Shown in pieces: positions 26,079-57,555 of a stretch of 64,000 nt of DNA. The DNA lies in contig NZ_CP051428.1 of the NCBI RefSeq assembly GCF_012676905.1, positions 2,070,001 through 2,134,000 on the forward strand. The letters are read 5' to 3'. The notes under the pieces are model-generated. The model saw nothing but the letters and a program-made list of their open reading frames with translations. It had not been told where the DNA came from and ran no database searches. Made by a program: the position numbers and the translations under genes. Every line of letters begins with the position of its first letter. Positions within the stretch are counted from its first letter, which is position 1. This stretch comes from Paenibacillus albicereus (GTDB lineage Bacteria; Bacillota; Bacilli; Paenibacillales; Paenibacillaceae).

Positions 26079-26239
26079 CTTAGCGTATATTTTCGTTAAA
26101 ATGTTGGCGAGACCCCCGAAAGAAGAAGTGGGTTGCGCTATGTTCGAACATACGTTACTAAGGTTGACACCAAGCAAACTTTTTGGCATCTATTGAAATA
26201 TGGTAAAATAAATTAATTCAATATGTCGAATAGACTAGG

Positions 26240-26320
26240 AAAAAAGGCAAACCTGATCGAAAGACAGGGACGCAAAGCCACGGGTCTTCTGCACTAGTGC
26301 AATGATCGCCGGGTTACCCT
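26240..26320 (+). promoter_or_regulatory. c-di-GMP-I (GEMM) riboswitch
   Basis: The conserved blocks are in the right order: AAAGGCAAACC, a short hairpin with CGAAAG, GGGACGCAAAGCCACGGG, a second hairpin (TGCACTAGTGCA) and ATGATCGCCGGGTTACC. This is the GEMM-I aptamer, which binds cyclic di-GMP. Its 3' end is directly followed by CCCTCTCA, which can pair with TGAGAGGG in the downstream terminator (26357-26364). Ligand binding could thus switch transcription of the regulator gene at 26406. Confidence 0.88.
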
Positions 26321-26346
26321 CTCAAACCACACCAAGATGACAAGCA

Positions 26347-26405: not shown

Positions 26406-27110
26406 ATGAACAAACAAACAAGCTTTTCTGTAGAGATAAAAGATATGATCCGTAGGAACGGGAGTATCAAAGTATTACTGGCGGATGGTGACCTAGCTTG
26501 GCAACAGCGACTCGCTATGTTGCTTGAATCCGAGCCAGATATTTATTTATCTAACATCGTTTCGACAAAAGAGGAAGCGATTCGAGCGAGTGTACAATTA
26601 GACGTAGACGTAATGATCTTGGAAATGATTTTGAATTCGCCCAAACGAGACGGGCTGGACGCCGCAGCGGAGATTCTCAGAAATAAAGAGTTACCGATTA
26701 TTGTCCTTTCTTCGATACATGATCCGGAAGTCATGGTCGATGCAGTTGTTGCCGGAGCGGTCAATTATATTACAAAGTCCAACTATATGGACATACCGGT
26801 TGCGATCAGAGAAGCTCACCGACGTCAGTCCTCTCTCCATGCGGATGTCGCGACGATAATCCGTAGTGAGATCGAGCTTATAAAGCGAAAAGAATTGCAT
26901 TGCATGCTCACACCTACGGAAAAAGAAATTTTGCAACTCATAGGCTTGGGCTATCGACAGACAATTATCAGAGAATTACTTGGCATTACTTCGAACACCC
27001 TAAAATCGCACGTTCGGCATATCACTCGTAAATTCGACACCCGATCCATTCGAGAAGCTGCTGAGAAGGCGAAACGAAGAGGTCTGTATGATCAGCACTA
27101 TGCTACGTGA
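26406..27110 (+). CDS. NarL/LuxR-type regulator with a Glu in place of the phospho-Asp
   Basis: This 234-residue protein has a receiver-like domain (about 20-140) and a C-terminal LuxR HTH (LTPTEKEILQLIGLGYRQ, then TLKSHVRHITRKF). The acidic pair is present (LADGD) and the conserved lysine is in YITKSNY. The expected phospho-acceptor is glutamate (E73 in MILEMILN), which usually mimics phosphorylation. No kinase gene is near. Expression is probably set by the c-di-GMP riboswitch 85 bp upstream. The targets are unknown; the neighbouring mobile-element genes are candidates. Confidence 0.85.
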   Translation: MNKQTSFSVEIKDMIRRNGSIKVLLADGDLAWQQRLAMLLESEPDIYLSNIVSTKEEAIRASVQLDVDVMILEMILNSPKRDGLDAAAEILRNKELPIIVLSSIHDPEVMVDAVVAGAVNYITKSNYMDIPVAIREAHRRQSSLHADVATIIRSEIELIKRKELHCMLTPTEKEILQLIGLGYRQTIIRELLGITSNTLKSHVRHITRKFDTRSIREAAEKAKRRGLYDQHYAT

Positions 27111-28487: not shown

Positions 28488-28552
28488 AAATGCATCCTGA
28501 ACTGGATACATCTGTATTTATGCTATGCGCATTACTTTGCATTCCAGCCATT

Positions 28553-28615
28553 GAGCGCCGCTTCATTTTTTGCTGTGATGATCAGCAAAAAGAAGCGAAG
28601 CGCTCTTTTTTATTT
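28553..28615 (+). terminator. Large intrinsic terminator
   Basis: GAGCGCCGCTTC-ATTTTTTGCTG pairs with CAGCAAAAAGAAGC-GAAGCGCTC over more than 18 bp. A T-rich tail follows to 28615. It separates the phased-repeat leader from the next leader region. Confidence 0.85.
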
Positions 28616-28787
28616 TCTGATTGAAACCCAAAAGAAGGTAGCTATTACAGTGACGAGTGCTGAAGGCATGTGATACGGGACAGTCAAAAAGGAGCGTTTG
28701 AACTAAAACGTAGGACAACACCATCATAAAACAGACTGGCTATTCCTCTCGCAATGGTGTTGCCATGTGAGGAGGGAAATTGATATT

Positions 28788-28859
28788 ATGTGCCCCACGT
28801 TGCATGCAATGTCAAACCACGATCCTTTTATGTGTTTTTACTATTCGTATGGCTCATAA
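28788..28859 (+). CDS. Leader peptide (23 residues)
   Basis: AGGAGGG lies about 11 nt before ATG 28788. The peptide begins MCPTLHAMSNHDPFMC and ends FYYSYGS, rich in His, Met, Phe and Tyr. Its stop lies 27 nt before an intrinsic terminator. Leader peptides of this kind occur before tet(M) in Tn916 and other ribosome-sensed genes. It should act by ribosome position rather than as a protein. An AACACCAT/ATGGTGTT inverted repeat (28717-28761) precedes it. Confidence 0.6.
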   Translation: MCPTLHAMSNHDPFMCFYYSYGS

Positions 28860-28885
28860 CGCCTCAACGATGGATATTACTATCA

Positions 28886-28934
28886 GACTTGGCTGCAAAT
28901 CAGCATTGGATTGCTGAGCGGCAAGGTCTTTTTT
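28886..28934 (+). terminator. Attenuator terminator behind the leader peptide
   Basis: GACTTGGCTGC (28886-28896) pairs with GCGGCAAGGTC (28918-28928) with one mismatch, around an inner stem CAGCA/TGCTG. Six T follow at 28929-28934. It sits between the leader peptide and the gene at 29034. Confidence 0.75.
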
Positions 28935-28988
28935 ATTTATGTAACAAAATCAACAATCGTTTTAAAGGGAGCGTTGGCTGTCGCTCTC

Positions 28989-29026
28989 CCCCTCCATTTT
29001 GGTTTGCCCACAAACCAAAATGGAGG
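28989..29026 (+). promoter_or_regulatory. Perfect 17-bp hairpin hiding a ribosome-binding site
   Basis: The arms 28989-29005 and 29010-29026 are perfectly complementary around a 4-nt CCCA loop. The right arm contains TGGAGGG, the ribosome-binding site for ATG 29034, so translation should be blocked while the hairpin stands. Together with the upstream attenuator it gives two layers of control. Confidence 0.8.
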
Positions 29027-29033
29027 GACGAAT

Positions 29034-29453
29034 ATGAAAAGGATTAATTTGCGGGACATGTATCCCTTTATCAAAACGGATGTATGGATCGACTTAGATG
29101 ATGAAGTGGCACAAGAAATCCGCCGTTTCGACTTAAACGAAAGTGCATATAAATTGCGCACCTATCGTCATCGCGCTTATTACTCGCTTGATCGGAACGA
29201 CGGTATAGAACAAGATGTTCTTTTCCTTTCGATTTCCCCGGAGGAATATTACGAGCGTAAGCTTTCCAATGAGCAGCTTTATGCGGCTATGTGTCGATTG
29301 CCGGAAAAATCGTTCAGACGAATTTATGCTCACTTCTTCTTAGACATGAGCAAAGTAGCGATTGCCCAAGCTGAGCAAGTTGATGAACGGGCAGTACGAA
29401 AATCTATTGAACGCGGCTTAAAACAAATGGCGCAGTTTCTCAAAAAAATGTGA
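29034..29453 (+). CDS. Sigma-70-like regulator of mobile-element type
   Basis: This 139-residue protein (MKRINLRDMYPFIKTDVWID at the start) resembles the small sigma-factor-like proteins of Gram-positive conjugative elements. A region-4-like HTH lies at about residues 88-135 (LPEKSFRRIYAHFFLDMSK, then VDERAVRKSIERGL). ATG 29034 is chosen because TGGAGGG stands 7 nt upstream; longer in-frame starts run through the hairpin. Its leader suggests tight control. It may direct RNA polymerase to element promoters. Confidence 0.7.
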   Translation: MKRINLRDMYPFIKTDVWIDLDDEVAQEIRRFDLNESAYKLRTYRHRAYYSLDRNDGIEQDVLFLSISPEEYYERKLSNEQLYAAMCRLPEKSFRRIYAHFFLDMSKVAIAQAEQVDERAVRKSIERGLKQMAQFLKKM

Positions 29454-32387: not shown

Positions 32388-32429
32388 AATATCCTAATGA
32401 AGTAGCATTTCTTGTTGAAAGGTGATTAT

Positions 32430-33524
32430 ATGGAAACTACTCTAAGTGAATTAAAACCATTCAAATTACCGCAAAAGCCGGATAATTACGATATTCTTTT
32501 TGGGTTGCCTATCCCCCCTATAGATAGATTGCGAACATTTTCAGCAGATCAATTTGAGGATATGATTTGTGAATGGGTCGATGGATATTTGAAAAAAGAG
32601 TATACATCTGTGTATCGCTCAGGCTCGGCAGGTGATAAGGGAAGGGATATAGTTGCATTTGTAAATAATGATTCCCCGAATCATGTCTGGGATAATTATC
32701 AATGTAAGCATTATGACCATCCGCTTTATCCAAGTGATGTATGGTTAGAATTGGGGAAACTATGCTACTACACGTTTATTAAAGAATATACAATTCCAAG
32801 AAAGTACTATTTGATTTCTTCTTGTGGTTTGGGAACTTCTTTATCAGAATTAATCGAGTATCCGACTCGTCTGAATGCTGGATTAATCTCAGCTTGGGAA
32901 GATAAATGCAAGAGAAAGATTACGAATGTAAGTGAAGTTTCTTTAACTAATGAGTTGCTGGAATATATCCAAAAGTTTGACTTTTCAATAATAAATCACT
33001 GTCCTCCTCAGAAATTGATAGAACAGTACAGCAGCACACCTTTTTATAAATATCGTTTTGGTGGTGGGTTAAATAAGCCTAGACCTCAGTCGGAGGCCCC
33101 AGGGCCTTCAATAAAACCGGAAGAAGTAAGATATGTTTCACAACTATTTGAAGCATATTCAGATCACCTTGGAAAAAAGATTGCTGGTGTTGAGGAGTTG
33201 AAAAGCTACAGCTCGCTGCATCGACATTTTAATAGACAGCGGGAAGACTATTATAAAGCAGAATCACTTAGAAGATTTGCTAGAGATGAGTTGCCTTATG
33301 ACGAGCCCTTTGAAAAGTTGCAGGATGAAATTTATAGAGGAGTAATAGACACTGCAGAGGATACTCATGCTGACGGCTTTGTATGTGTTAAGGAAACAAT
33401 AAAAGAAGCTAGAAAATTGGAGATTACAAGCAATGTACTAATTAGCTACATTGATGGAAGTGATAGAAGTGGAATTTGCCATCAACTGGCGAACAATGAC
33501 ATTCTGAACTGGGTGAGAAAATGA
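32430..33524 (+). CDS. ABC-3C effector: PD-(D/E)XK nuclease-like protein
   Basis: This 364-residue protein has an N-terminal Mrr-like nuclease core. FSADQFEDMICEWV provides the first acidic residue, and GDKGRDIVAF (D73) and NYQCKHY (Q91-x-K93) the D...QxK metal site. A C-terminal helical part (about 235-364) ends in SDRSGICHQLANNDILNW. This architecture, a variable effector domain plus a C-terminal partner-binding region, is that of ABC-three-component systems. ATG 32430 follows AAAGGTGAT. Its stop overlaps the next start (ATGA). It is the likely toxic nuclease of the system. Confidence 0.8.
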   Translation: METTLSELKPFKLPQKPDNYDILFGLPIPPIDRLRTFSADQFEDMICEWVDGYLKKEYTSVYRSGSAGDKGRDIVAFVNNDSPNHVWDNYQCKHYDHPLYPSDVWLELGKLCYYTFIKEYTIPRKYYLISSCGLGTSLSELIEYPTRLNAGLISAWEDKCKRKITNVSEVSLTNELLEYIQKFDFSIINHCPPQKLIEQYSSTPFYKYRFGGGLNKPRPQSEAPGPSIKPEEVRYVSQLFEAYSDHLGKKIAGVEELKSYSSLHRHFNRQREDYYKAESLRRFARDELPYDEPFEKLQDEIYRGVIDTAEDTHADGFVCVKETIKEARKLEITSNVLISYIDGSDRSGICHQLANNDILNWVRK

Positions 33525-34024
33525 ACGAGGTAAAATTAAGTAGAGAAACCTACCTATTCAATACTCCATTAGAAACTGGACTTCGATGCTTAGTGATTTT
33601 AGCAGGATTAGAAAATAAAGCTATAGATATTCAAAGGTTGATTTATTTGGATTATCTATTAACACATTATGGTGATGTTGAGCCAGAATTTGAGAGTCTG
33701 CATCCTTCAACACCATCTCGATCTGGTGAAATACTGATAAAGCGAGATTTAGTAAGCCAAGGGCTTCACTTAATGATTAGCAAAAAGCTTATTAACATCG
33801 AATATGGAAAAAGCGGAATTTTGTATGGAGCAACACCTTACTCTAAAGCGTTTCTTCAACATTTTGAGTCTAACTATATGCTACGGCTTCTGGATGTGAA
33901 TAAATTACTGATCGACAAATTCTCTAATTATACTGATGTGGAACTCAAAAATTTTATAATGAAAAATATTGATCGCTGGGGTGGAGAATTTGTAAAAGAA
34001 GCTTTCGTAAGGGGGGACAACTAA
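33521..34024 (+). CDS. ABC-three-component system middle component (MC2-like)
   Basis: This 167-residue protein has the recurring middle-component pattern: FNTPLETGLRCLVILAG, RLIYLDYLLTHYGDVEP, ESLHPSTPSRSGEILIKRDL and GLHLMISKKLI. It has no catalytic motif and probably links the ATPase to the effector. It overlaps the gene before by 4 nt and the gene after by 1 nt (TAATG). The tight packing indicates fixed stoichiometry. Confidence 0.85.
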   Translation: MNEVKLSRETYLFNTPLETGLRCLVILAGLENKAIDIQRLIYLDYLLTHYGDVEPEFESLHPSTPSRSGEILIKRDLVSQGLHLMISKKLINIEYGKSGILYGATPYSKAFLQHFESNYMLRLLDVNKLLIDKFSNYTDVELKNFIMKNIDRWGGEFVKEAFVRGDN

Positions 34025-35922
34025 TGAATACAGAGGGTTTTTTTATTTCGGAAATCCGACTTACAGGAAAAAATAAGAGAAATGCTAGTATCGTACTCAA
34101 AAAAGGGCTTAATGTTATCTCAGGTGCTTCTGATACTGGGAAGACTTACATATTTCAATTAATAAACTATATGTTTGGTGGTAAAGATGAACCAAAAGAA
34201 ATAGATGAAAGTATTGGGTATTCAACTATTTTTATTGAACTTGAGAAATACGAAGGAGAAAGCTATACATTAAAGCGTGAAATTGGTGATTCATCAATTT
34301 TTGTCTATGAGTCAAAAATTGATGATATTTCATTTCTGCAGAATTGTGTGAAACTGAAAGCTAAGCATGATAAGGATGACAAGGACAATATATCAACATT
34401 TCTCTTATCCTTAACGGGAATCAAAGATATGCTTTTAAGGAAAAATGCAAGAGGAACCAAAGTATCTTTTTCTTTTAGAAATCTTGTTGCTCTAATGATG
34501 CTTAATGAGGAAAAAATTATATCAGAGGAAGTGCCTATTTTTTCAGGTATACCCTCTAATAAAACGACTGAACAGTCTGCATTTAAGACTATTCTAACAG
34601 GCGTAGACGATAATCATGGAGAAGAGATAGAAGACCCTAAGATATACAGAACCCGACTCGAAGGAAAGTTGGAGTTTGTAAGCTCTTTGTTGCAGAAATT
34701 GAAAATGGAATTGAAAGAAAAAGGCGCACAAATTCAGGACTATGATGCCAATGAACTAACAAAAGAGATTGAGAAATTAATGAGTACATTATCAAATAAT
34801 AGCAAAGAAATTAATCTTAGGATGGGACAAAAGAAAGAAATATGGATTCAAGAACAAGAAATAAAATCAAGAATTTTAATGCTTGAAGAACTATTAGAAA
34901 GATTCAGATTGCTTGAAAAAAGCTATCTTTCTGATTTAGATCGACTTCAATTTCTTATTGAAGGGGATCACTATATCTCACAATTATTTGATTCAAATTG
35001 CCCTGTTTGCAATAATCCTTTCAACTCAAAAACTACTGAGCATAATCATGATTTTTACTTAGAGGATTTACAAATTGCGTGTTCTGAGGAAAGTAATAAA
35101 ATTAACGCTCAGCTAATTGATCTTAGAGAAACATTAACAAATCTACAAAATGAGAATAAAGAAAACAATGAAAAAGTTAAACTTTTAAGTCAACGAATTA
35201 AGGAAATTGAGGTCATTATTCAGCGTGAATTAAAGCCAGTTGCAGTATTAACGAAAGAAAGAATGGATACTTTGTTGAACATAAAAAAGATTTTTCAAGA
35301 AATTGAACTTAATGAACGTCGTATTGCTGAGTATCAAACTAGCCAGTTAGATATTATGAGGGAGTTGTCTAAAAAGAATCAGAAGATGAAATTCGTTAAT
35401 GAAATAACAACAGAAATTTATGATGATTTTGCTACAGAAGTGAAAGAGTTACTTGCTGGATGGAACTACCCTGATTTAACAAGTGTAAGCATAGATTATG
35501 ATGATCAGGAGTTAATTGTTTCAGGTAAGAAAAGAAAAAATCATGGAAAAGGTTATCGGGCAATATTAAATGCTGCTTTTGTTATTGCTATTATGAAATA
35601 TACAAGAAGTATTGGACTCAAGCATCCTGGGCTGATTATTTTAGATTCTCCGTTAACTACTTACAAAGAAAGACTCAATCAAACAACACTAAGCAGTAGT
35701 GAAGAAGATATATCGTTAGACATGAAGCAAGCCTTTTTCAAAAATTTATCTAAACTTCGAAATGATGTTCAGGTAATCATTTTTGAAAATATAGACCCTA
35801 TTAAAGAAGTACAGGATAACATGAACTATATTCACTTTAGCAAAGTAATTGGTGTGGGGAGATATGGTTTTATTCCGGTTGACAATATTACTGAATCAGT
35901 GAGCAATAATCCAATTGAATAG
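34024..35922 (+). CDS. Rad50/SMC-like ABC ATPase of the ABC-3C system
   Basis: This 632-residue ATPase has Walker A SGASDTGKT at about 33-41, two long coiled coils and a Rad50-like zinc-hook motif CPVC (C326-x2-C329). Walker B is GLIILDSPLT (D541). The signature-like region GKGYRAILNAAFVIAI precedes Walker B. The hook and coils suggest a DNA-end or chromatin sensor that dimerises on ATP. In ABC-3C systems the ATPase is thought to detect invaders and release the effector. The gene is AT-rich like its neighbours. Confidence 0.88.
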   Translation: MNTEGFFISEIRLTGKNKRNASIVLKKGLNVISGASDTGKTYIFQLINYMFGGKDEPKEIDESIGYSTIFIELEKYEGESYTLKREIGDSSIFVYESKIDDISFLQNCVKLKAKHDKDDKDNISTFLLSLTGIKDMLLRKNARGTKVSFSFRNLVALMMLNEEKIISEEVPIFSGIPSNKTTEQSAFKTILTGVDDNHGEEIEDPKIYRTRLEGKLEFVSSLLQKLKMELKEKGAQIQDYDANELTKEIEKLMSTLSNNSKEINLRMGQKKEIWIQEQEIKSRILMLEELLERFRLLEKSYLSDLDRLQFLIEGDHYISQLFDSNCPVCNNPFNSKTTEHNHDFYLEDLQIACSEESNKINAQLIDLRETLTNLQNENKENNEKVKLLSQRIKEIEVIIQRELKPVAVLTKERMDTLLNIKKIFQEIELNERRIAEYQTSQLDIMRELSKKNQKMKFVNEITTEIYDDFATEVKELLAGWNYPDLTSVSIDYDDQELIVSGKKRKNHGKGYRAILNAAFVIAIMKYTRSIGLKHPGLIILDSPLTTYKERLNQTTLSSSEEDISLDMKQAFFKNLSKLRNDVQVIIFENIDPIKEVQDNMNYIHFSKVIGVGRYGFIPVDNITESVSNNPIE

Positions 35923-56976: not shown

Positions 56977-57319
56977 GTCCATCACTCCTTGATCCAAGTT
57001 GCCGCCTATCCTAATCGACGGGCGGAGCGGATGTAAAAAATCGCGGGGAGCGAATCCGGTCCTAACAGCTCATGTAAGCGCGACCAAAAGGCCGTTTCGC
57101 AAGCAAGCGCCCGTCCCTTCTGGCCGGAGTCGATTTGGACGGGAAATCGAAAACGAGAGATATCAAGAGATTTGGAGAGAAAAACGGAGATATGATGCAG
57201 CCGAGAATCCTAGAAGCTGGTTTCGTACCGATTTTCTGGCGATGCTTCGGCTTTACTTTGCGAAAAGTCCGGGTGTAAGATTCGACTCAAGCAATCCAGA
57301 CCAGCTTTTGACAACGCCG
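56977..57319. other. Leader and promoter region before the kdp riboswitch
   Basis: No gene is seen. The region must hold divergent promoters for the Usp-like gene and for kdp. A TTGACA occurs at 57308-57313 but lacks an obvious matching -10. Confidence 0.4.
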
Positions 57320-57490
57320 AGTTTCCGAAACGGGAAACGGGGGAACCAAACGGAGAGGCCAGAGCCGATGTGAGAGTCGGCACGGGCCGCTCCAGGGGTG
57401 AATCCCGGAGGAATGGAGCCATGGACTCCATCCTCCGAGTAGGGCGACTCTCACCGTCCGAATCCGACAGCTAACCTCGTAGGCGCAAGG
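57320..57490 (+). promoter_or_regulatory. c-di-AMP (ydaO/yuaA) riboswitch
   Basis: The conserved blocks appear in order: AACGGGGGAACC, GGGGTGAATCC, a hairpin with CATGGACTCCATCC, GTAGGGCGACTCTCACC and CCGAATCCGACAGCTAACCT-CGTAGGCG. This is the ydaO-type aptamer that binds cyclic di-AMP and usually turns off potassium-uptake genes. A terminator follows at 57556. Confidence 0.92.
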
Positions 57491-57555
57491 ACACGGCACG
57501 CTTGACGCGCCGCGCTCCGATCGGGAGAGAGGATGATGACGCTTGTGATCTGACC

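Follow-up and report, generated by a model that had tools for sequence, protein, structure and literature searches.

Arrest peptides are known mainly as protein export monitors, and several other systems use the translation of a leader to act on the gene behind it. In Escherichia coli pyrBI, the leader ORF crosses a terminator, and a closely following ribosome prevents termination; pyrBI is not known to have a frameshift, arrest motif or Shine–Dalgarno (SD) hairpin. In ermC, stalling of the leader ribosome requires a macrolide. A programmed frameshift gates the transcription regulator of an integrative element in the case of FseA, the excision activator of the rhizobial symbiosis ICEs.

The RAPP class of arrest peptides (ApdA, ApdP, ApcA and SecM) carries R-x-P-P (or RAGP/RAPG) near the end of a short uORF that lies before the regulated gene, and its described members are protein export monitors or have membrane domains. 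Ribosomes stall at RxPP motifs, including RSPP, in published screens, and Bacillota proteomes are depleted of such motifs (PMC7897499, PMC12992588). The same papers report that RSPP placed in ApdA/ApdP partly supported arrest, and that RxPP alone is insufficient and upstream residues matter (PMC7897499, PMC12992588). RSPP was also found in uORFs that cluster with RAPP ones (PMC10987492), and two Streptomyces arrest peptides of the RAPP/RGPP type precede ECF sigma genes (PMC12992588). The nearest precedents for the locus described below are these Streptomyces arrest peptides, together with the frameshift control of rhizobial ICEs mentioned above. A full-text literature search gave, among the matches listed, zero titles or abstract starts in which the layout of this locus was described.

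The window analyzed here is a stretch of 64,000 nt from Paenibacillus albicereus (NZ_CP051428.1, positions 2,070,001 to 2,134,000). In it, a sigma-like gene is preceded by a leader, a terminator and an SD-hiding hairpin, all overlapped by a frame that encodes RSPP. The RSPP loci differ from the RAPP class in the RSPP motif itself, in the frame change that is often needed, in the terminator inside the ORF and in the mobile-element gene that follows. As in ermC, a stalled leader ribosome would free a sequestered SD; unlike ermC, the class to which the motif belongs arrests intrinsically, and the path includes a terminator as well. The FseA shift joins two parts of the regulator, whereas the shift at an RSPP locus would open a leader frame before the regulator.

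Layout of the window locus

All of the features lie on the forward strand. The leader SD, GAGGAGGG, was located at 28769–28776 by direct reading; it is the top anti-SD pairing site of the region and is separated by 11 nt from the ATG (28788) of a short leader ORF of 23 codons, MCPTLHAMSNHDPFMCFYYSYGS, which spans 28788–28859 and ends upstream of the terminator. The intrinsic terminator (28885–28938, −22.3 kcal/mol) consists of a hairpin at 28885–28930 followed by TTTTATTT. This terminator was absent from the output of a generic terminator scan of the region, probably because its bulged stem falls outside the scan rules. Next come the Gly-Cys-Arg-Ser-Pro-Pro codons at 28976–28993, a putative arrest motif in which RSPP occupies 28982–28993 and after which a third Pro codon follows. 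The SD-sequestering hairpin (28990–29027) has 17-bp arms at 28990–29006 and 29011–29027 that are 100% complementary and enclose a 4-nt loop, and its right arm contains the SD of the sigma-like gene, GGAGGG, at 29022–29027 by direct reading. The gene (P0002, 29034–29453) encodes a protein of 139 aa that resembles sigma-70 region 4 (Pfam Sigma70_r4_2, E 5e-6, 26.5 bits against a cut-off of 25.7). A sequence-only reading of this DNA had proposed the order of leader, intrinsic terminator, perfect 17-bp SD hairpin and sigma-like gene, and every one of these elements was found in its place.

Running through all of them is a second frame, −1 relative to the leader, that ends after RSPP. This RSPP frame spans 28784–29047, is stop-free through the leader, the terminator and the SD hairpin, and terminates 14 nt into the sigma-like gene. 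Its starts in the window are GTG or TTG only, the first GTG being at 28790 (85 codons). The fold of a 401-nt region of the window beats 100/100 dinucleotide shuffles (z −4.6). An Rfam scan of the locus returned zero families at the gathering threshold and, with a relaxed E-value, just weak hairpin-like matches far under the gathering scores.

Two further structures were noticed by eye 5′ of the leader. At 28716–28776, two crossing helices, possibly a pseudoknot, pair 28716–28724 with 28754–28762 and approximately 28743–28753 with 28766–28776, and include the leader SD. Their strands appear pairable in relatives despite a changed 5′ strand, and the single-sequence fold of the region is no better than that of shuffles (z −0.5). 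Farther upstream, a terminator-like hairpin with a T tail at 28550–28612 has apparent counterparts in relatives.

The RSPP frame and the two hairpins in relatives

Relatives were collected by scanning named genomes with an alignment of five sigma-like proteins, from which the best 80 of 142 were kept; viral contigs gave 3. At least 280 nt of upstream sequence was present in 82 of 84 loci including the window; the other two, L061 and L095, were left out of the frame counts. The pattern CGNTCNCC occurs in the last 75 nt in 77 of the 82 loci, which 8-mer sharing grouped into 46 clusters, and the cluster analysis excludes the five loci without it (L082, L085, L094, L102 and L103). A further 22 loci, many from genomes already sampled, were kept out of the cluster counts, and L142 was left out of this additional set.

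The best 80 of 142 relatives span Paenibacillus, Cohnella, other Bacilli, many Clostridia and Enterococcus cecorum; one of the 80, the RSPP-type locus L074, is on a contig labelled as an archaeal MAG and binned as a Methanomassiliicoccaceae archaeon. Paenibacillus humicus (L021) encodes an identical sigma-like protein, and a Cohnella herbarum plasmid encodes one that is 97.8% identical. In a set of 98 genomes that contains the window's own, 16 gave matches at E 0.001 or better, and in 8 of these the match was full-length with 78–100% identity; 27 of 392 genomes of the same order had a match at 1e-20 or better. The same layout is present before homologous sigma-like genes in many Bacillota (46 clusters examined).

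A helix score of at least 11 was reached in 45 of the 46 clusters, with the SD in the 3′ arm in 45, and by 4.3% of shuffles; L075 is the sole cluster without an SD hairpin by this helix test. Since the SD helices have 35 distinct left arms, the pairing has been kept while the sequence changed. The terminator, at −10 kcal/mol or better and no more than 140 nt before the motif, was found in 44 of the 46 clusters and in 14% of shuffles, the exceptions being L063 (weak, −7.7 kcal/mol) and L100 (none). The earlier proposal that the gene is controlled in both transcription and translation is supported.

RSPP is encoded in 79 of the 82 loci, 76 times through the CGNTCNCC pattern and three times by other codons (L094, L102 and L103, which were counted for RSPP only and left out of the frame analysis). 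In these 79 loci, R-x-P-P is thus present near the end of an upstream ORF, as in the RAPP class. The remaining three loci read RSPS (the single exception among the 77 CGNTCNCC loci), HSPP (L085) and nothing similar (L082). The clusters share TGY CGN TCN CCN CC immediately 5′ of the hairpin, usually preceded by a Gly or Arg codon, and the residues R, S and the first P are conserved in 46/46, the second P in 45/46 and C in 44/46 clusters. The third codon bases are free within the motif, and 42 distinct 12-mers occur among the 77 loci. Of 650 further ATG ORFs in these loci, each at least 120 aa long, 0 have CGNTCNCCNCC in the 75 nt before them.

Could the conserved letters instead be a non-coding site for RNA or protein binding? 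Such a role for GGNTGYCGNTCNCCNCC is barely credible. In the window fold, it does supply one strand of a small stem, but from Arg to the second Pro, the first and second codon bases have near-zero entropy and the third bases 1.3–2.0 bits, and the same frame is stop-free upstream. The reading of GGNTGYCGNTCNCCNCC as a conserved RNA motif was ruled out by this codon periodicity.

Upstream of the motif, 43 of the 46 clusters keep the RSPP frame free of stops over 45 codons or more, compared with a mean of 5.7 and a maximum of 12 of 46 in shuffles, and with 4% and 11% for the other two frames; the median open length is 59.5 codons versus 17 and 16.5. The short frames among the clusters are those of L066 (20 codons), L067 (24) and L100 (36), and in the 22-locus set, the frame of L147 is open for 27 codons. 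Pairwise comparison of close relatives used 41 of 47 pairs, 6 being too short. Over these 41 pairs, the RSPP frame contains 0 stops and the other frames 75 and 106, and changes in the RSPP frame number 105, 98 and 163 by codon position, with the third position the highest. The amino-acid constraint 5′ of the motif is weak (84 synonymous versus 158 non-synonymous changes).

The bases of the short leader itself can be compared in a gap-free set of seven loci (the window, L027, L030, L031, L033, L038 and L086), in all of which the RSPP frame is at −1. In the 23-codon leader frame, the single-change codon pairs comprised 30 synonymous and 118 non-synonymous ones, and stops occurred, whereas the −1 frame of the same loci gave 95 synonymous and 73 non-synonymous ones and zero stops, over 21 pairs that are not independent. 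These counts indicate that the leader bases are constrained mainly in the −1 frame. Furthermore, the window-type relatives have leaders of anywhere from 3 to 51 codons at the leader position. Judged by these comparisons, what is conserved as coding sequence is the overlapping frame that ends in RSPP, not the 23-codon peptide. The refuting condition set with the sequence-only reading, homologous loci that keep the hairpin but no conserved leader or terminator, thus has a mixed outcome, and the earlier emphasis on the leader survives in part: the terminator is conserved, a ribosome entry site is usual and a role for leader translation stands, but the 23-codon peptide is not the conserved element.

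These results also bear on control of the tet(M) or pyrBI kind, in which the translation speed of the 23-codon leader would set termination and the SD hairpin would be a separate, passive lock. We regard this as improbable. A leader SD and a terminator are present, and the tet(M) gene of pCF10 likewise has a leader and a terminator; on the other hand, the window's leader frame is poorly conserved, varies in length among relatives and ends before the terminator, and it is the −1 frame that is constrained over the same bases. The resemblance to tet(M) that the sequence-only reading had drawn holds for the layout, in which translation of a conjugative element's leader crosses an intrinsic terminator. 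On pCF10, the tet(M) leader is read across its own terminator, and the RSPP loci have a leader followed or overlapped by one. It does not extend further. RSPP is absent from the pCF10 tet(M) leader, before tet(M) the terminator is itself the best helix and no helix holds the tet(M) SD, and by the codon counts, the seven loci compared have no conserved peptide in the frame of the strong start. The tet(M) leader was rejected as a homologue, as it is without RSPP.

The RSPP frame could also encode a free-standing small protein whose overlap with the regulatory RNA is incidental. This is highly improbable, because although the frame is open and shows some amino-acid constraint, the residues flanking CRSPP differ among clades and the C-terminal end is variable. 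The frame ends anywhere between −42 and +426 relative to the sigma ATG, and in several loci, it continues in frame into the sigma gene.

Geometry of the motif and entry into its frame

The first Pro codon lies 2–6 nt before the left arm of the hairpin in 41 of the 46 clusters, with a median of 5. As in the RAPP class, the position of RSPP is nearly fixed relative to the SD-hiding structure, a hairpin being present in 45/46. If the leading edge of the ribosome lies 15 nt ahead, a ribosome arrested at the first Pro codon would cover 0.6–1.0 of the left arm (median 0.71). RSPP is a probable ribosome-stalling motif, placed such that a stall there would expose the start signal of the gene.

The open frame and the constraint on it, the near-invariant motif and its geometry, the terminator and the hairpin were observed, and they are probably best explained by a cis-acting, ribosome-operated double lock in which antitermination is followed by an RSPP stall that frees the SD. 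Ribosomes would initiate at the leader site. A ribosome that stays in the short leader frame would stop before the terminator, and transcription would end there. A ribosome in the RSPP frame would trail RNA polymerase across the terminator and block its hairpin; the same ribosome would then make ...GCRSPP and arrest with approximately RSP in the P site, its edge over the larger part of the SD hairpin's left arm, which would leave the SD free and let the sigma-like gene be translated. Coupled antitermination is suggested by the fact that the same ribosome must cross the terminator before it meets the motif. The sigma-like protein would presumably then turn on functions of the element.

A simpler form of coupling would dispense with the arrest: ribosomes would follow the RSPP frame to its end, opening the SD hairpin on the way, and would then re-initiate at the sigma-like gene. 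Many loci have an ATGA-type overlap (+4) with the sigma start, and the frame in the window ends at +14. However, the wide variation of the frame end described above, including its continuation into the sigma gene, argues against it, as does the nearly fixed distance between RSPP and its hairpin, and we consider coupling without arrest unlikely.

For each cluster, a best-SD leader was defined, using only starts at least 25 codons upstream of the motif. Among the 46 clusters, this leader would reach the RSPP frame by −1 at an in-phase A6/A7 in 16, by a −1 or +1 shift with CCC at codons 2–4 in 7 (the window included), and by other shifts in 9 (−1 in 6 and +1 in 3); it is already in the RSPP frame in 5 (L045, L047, L053, L076 and L088) and fails to reach it in 9. 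In the 22-locus set, L137–L140 also start in the RSPP frame (by eye). The leader phases, the A-runs and the in-frame variants together imply that ribosomes loaded at the leader site have to get into the RSPP frame, mostly by a frame change, and that in the few natural variants, the leader start would place them there directly. Frameshifting into the RSPP frame is thus what we infer from these arrangements.

Between −330 and −180, there are 20 runs of seven or more A, exactly seven in 19, and 18 of these 19 exact A7 runs are in the −1 heptamer phase. An in-phase run of A6 or more lies within the open frame in 25 of the 46 clusters; in 12 of the 25, the RSPP frame opens just 6 or 12 nt before the run, so that entry much upstream of the run is impossible in those 12 clusters. 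A −1 shift on A AAA AAA would be the way into the RSPP frame in many Clostridia and in Enterococcus cecorum, although transcriptional slippage at A7 may take the place of ribosomal −1 frameshifting. An in-phase A6 run also occurs in the Paenibacillus locus L084. No in-phase A-run heptamer was found in the window or in the other ten clusters with window-type leaders; non-A slippery sequences in the window were inspected by eye only.

In the window, ribosomes may enter the frame by slipping at codon 3 (CCC) or by starting at the GTG that overlaps the ATG. Most of the distinct leaders listed have CCC as codon 3 (those of L029, L030, L031, L037, L045, L128, L139 and L147 do not), and the shift needed in CCC leaders is −1 in some and +1 in others. 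The window-type clusters L029 and L031 have neither CCC at codons 2–4 nor an in-phase A-run, and in L022, which belongs to the window's own cluster, the phase of the leader relative to the RSPP frame differs from that in the window. A C CCC slip as the single mechanism of window-type leaders was ruled out by such exceptions and by the mixed direction of the shift, and the GTG at 28790 was ruled out as a general start, the codon being GTT or GTA in L031, L033 and L086. CCC codons near the start and proline arrests can depend on EF-P or on tRNA-Pro modification.

A separate family of leader peptides, ending in ...SG(L/R/Q)A and lying 250–330 nt before the sigma gene, was noticed by eye in L048, L049, L072, L087 and L093. 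In some of these loci, the SD of the leader is in a CCCCTCC/GGAGGGG-type hairpin. The leaders of this family do not reach the RSPP frame.

Tn916 orf7 and the mobile-element setting

The region upstream of orf7 in the Tn916-type element of pCF10 (L104, 42835–43190, minus strand) contains a leader that begins with MKYIIYNKFPYIGFLSKK. This leader has an SD and ends with ...LSKK on an in-phase TCA AAA AAA G, an A7 heptamer; its −1 frame is long, crosses a strong terminator without a stop and comes close to the sigma gene, and a 13-bp SD hairpin precedes orf7. The leader, the heptamer and the frame are kept in three other Tn916-type loci (L117, L118 and L119), of which L119 equals pCF10 over 330 nt. 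The orf7 loci differ from the RSPP loci in having no RSPP, with ATNPP in pCF10/L119 and L118 and ATNRP in L117 instead, and the orf7-type and window sigma proteins share 27% identity over 60 residues. From its sequence, the orf7 upstream region looks like an RSPP-less variant of the same system. A search of 398 genomes for orf7 gave 12 loci, whose upstream regions lie outside the present analysis. Elements carrying erm(B), cfr(B), vanB and tet(M) have orf7-type sigma genes, mostly followed by HTH and excisionase or integrase genes; zero orf7-like A7G leaders were found at the sigma genes of the erm(B), cfr(B) and vanB elements and of a C. difficile plasmid (L120–L123).

The neighbors of ten relatives, listed by a domain scan that left out L030, include a Resolvase-family (serine-recombinase) ORF downstream in 7 and a Phage_integrase (tyrosine-integrase) ORF in 1, at approximately 0.8–1.2 kb after the sigma-like gene. 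The original view of a sigma-like gene that belongs to a mobile element is probably right. In addition, L034 has a TraG P-loop ORF upstream, L079 has an rRNA-dimethylase-family gene adjoining its RSPP-type gene, and in L020, bacitracin-resistance genes stand before a sigma-like gene whose upstream region also reads CRSPP. In the window, an arsenic operon is the upstream cargo, and a DUF6075 protein and an NlpC/P60 protein follow the sigma-like gene; no recombinase was found in the window among 20 Pfam-scanned proteins (of 174 ORFs of at least 80 aa).

Elsewhere in the window, ABC-three-component genes (CTD6 and MC2) at 32412–35922, past the neighbors of the sigma gene, form a candidate defence system, with an AAA_23 match that is weak and just under the cut-off. 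Two riboswitches were also observed: a c-di-GMP-I riboswitch at 26236–26321 (Rfam E 4e-12), upstream of a response-regulator gene at 26406, and a c-di-AMP riboswitch (ydaO/yuaA leader) at 57305–57500 (Rfam E 4e-16).

What might this arrangement mean for the elements that carry it? We put forward, tentatively, the possibility that mobile elements of Bacillota widely share a class of gene switch not yet described, in which a ribosome that has changed frame opens two locks in series and of which an RSPP-less variant stands before Tn916 orf7. The frame change and the proline arrest may sense the state of translation, such that ribosome stress would trigger transfer. If so, the sequences concerned would be A7 in Clostridia and CCC then RSPP(P) in Paenibacillaceae, both potentially dependent on EF-P or tRNA-Pro, and there would be a base-level explanation of how a sigma-like regulator is coupled to the state of the ribosome. 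A type of motif known from export monitors would here probably serve as a mobile-element switch under strict geometric constraint, and at least one such element has resistance genes adjoining (bacitracin, L020). Translation-inhibiting drugs raise the transfer of Tn916, according to PMC9632896; if the proposal is true, it would provide a testable reason for the raised transfer of some elements by such drugs. The loci also offer many natural examples of a frame-change site paired with an arrest sequence.
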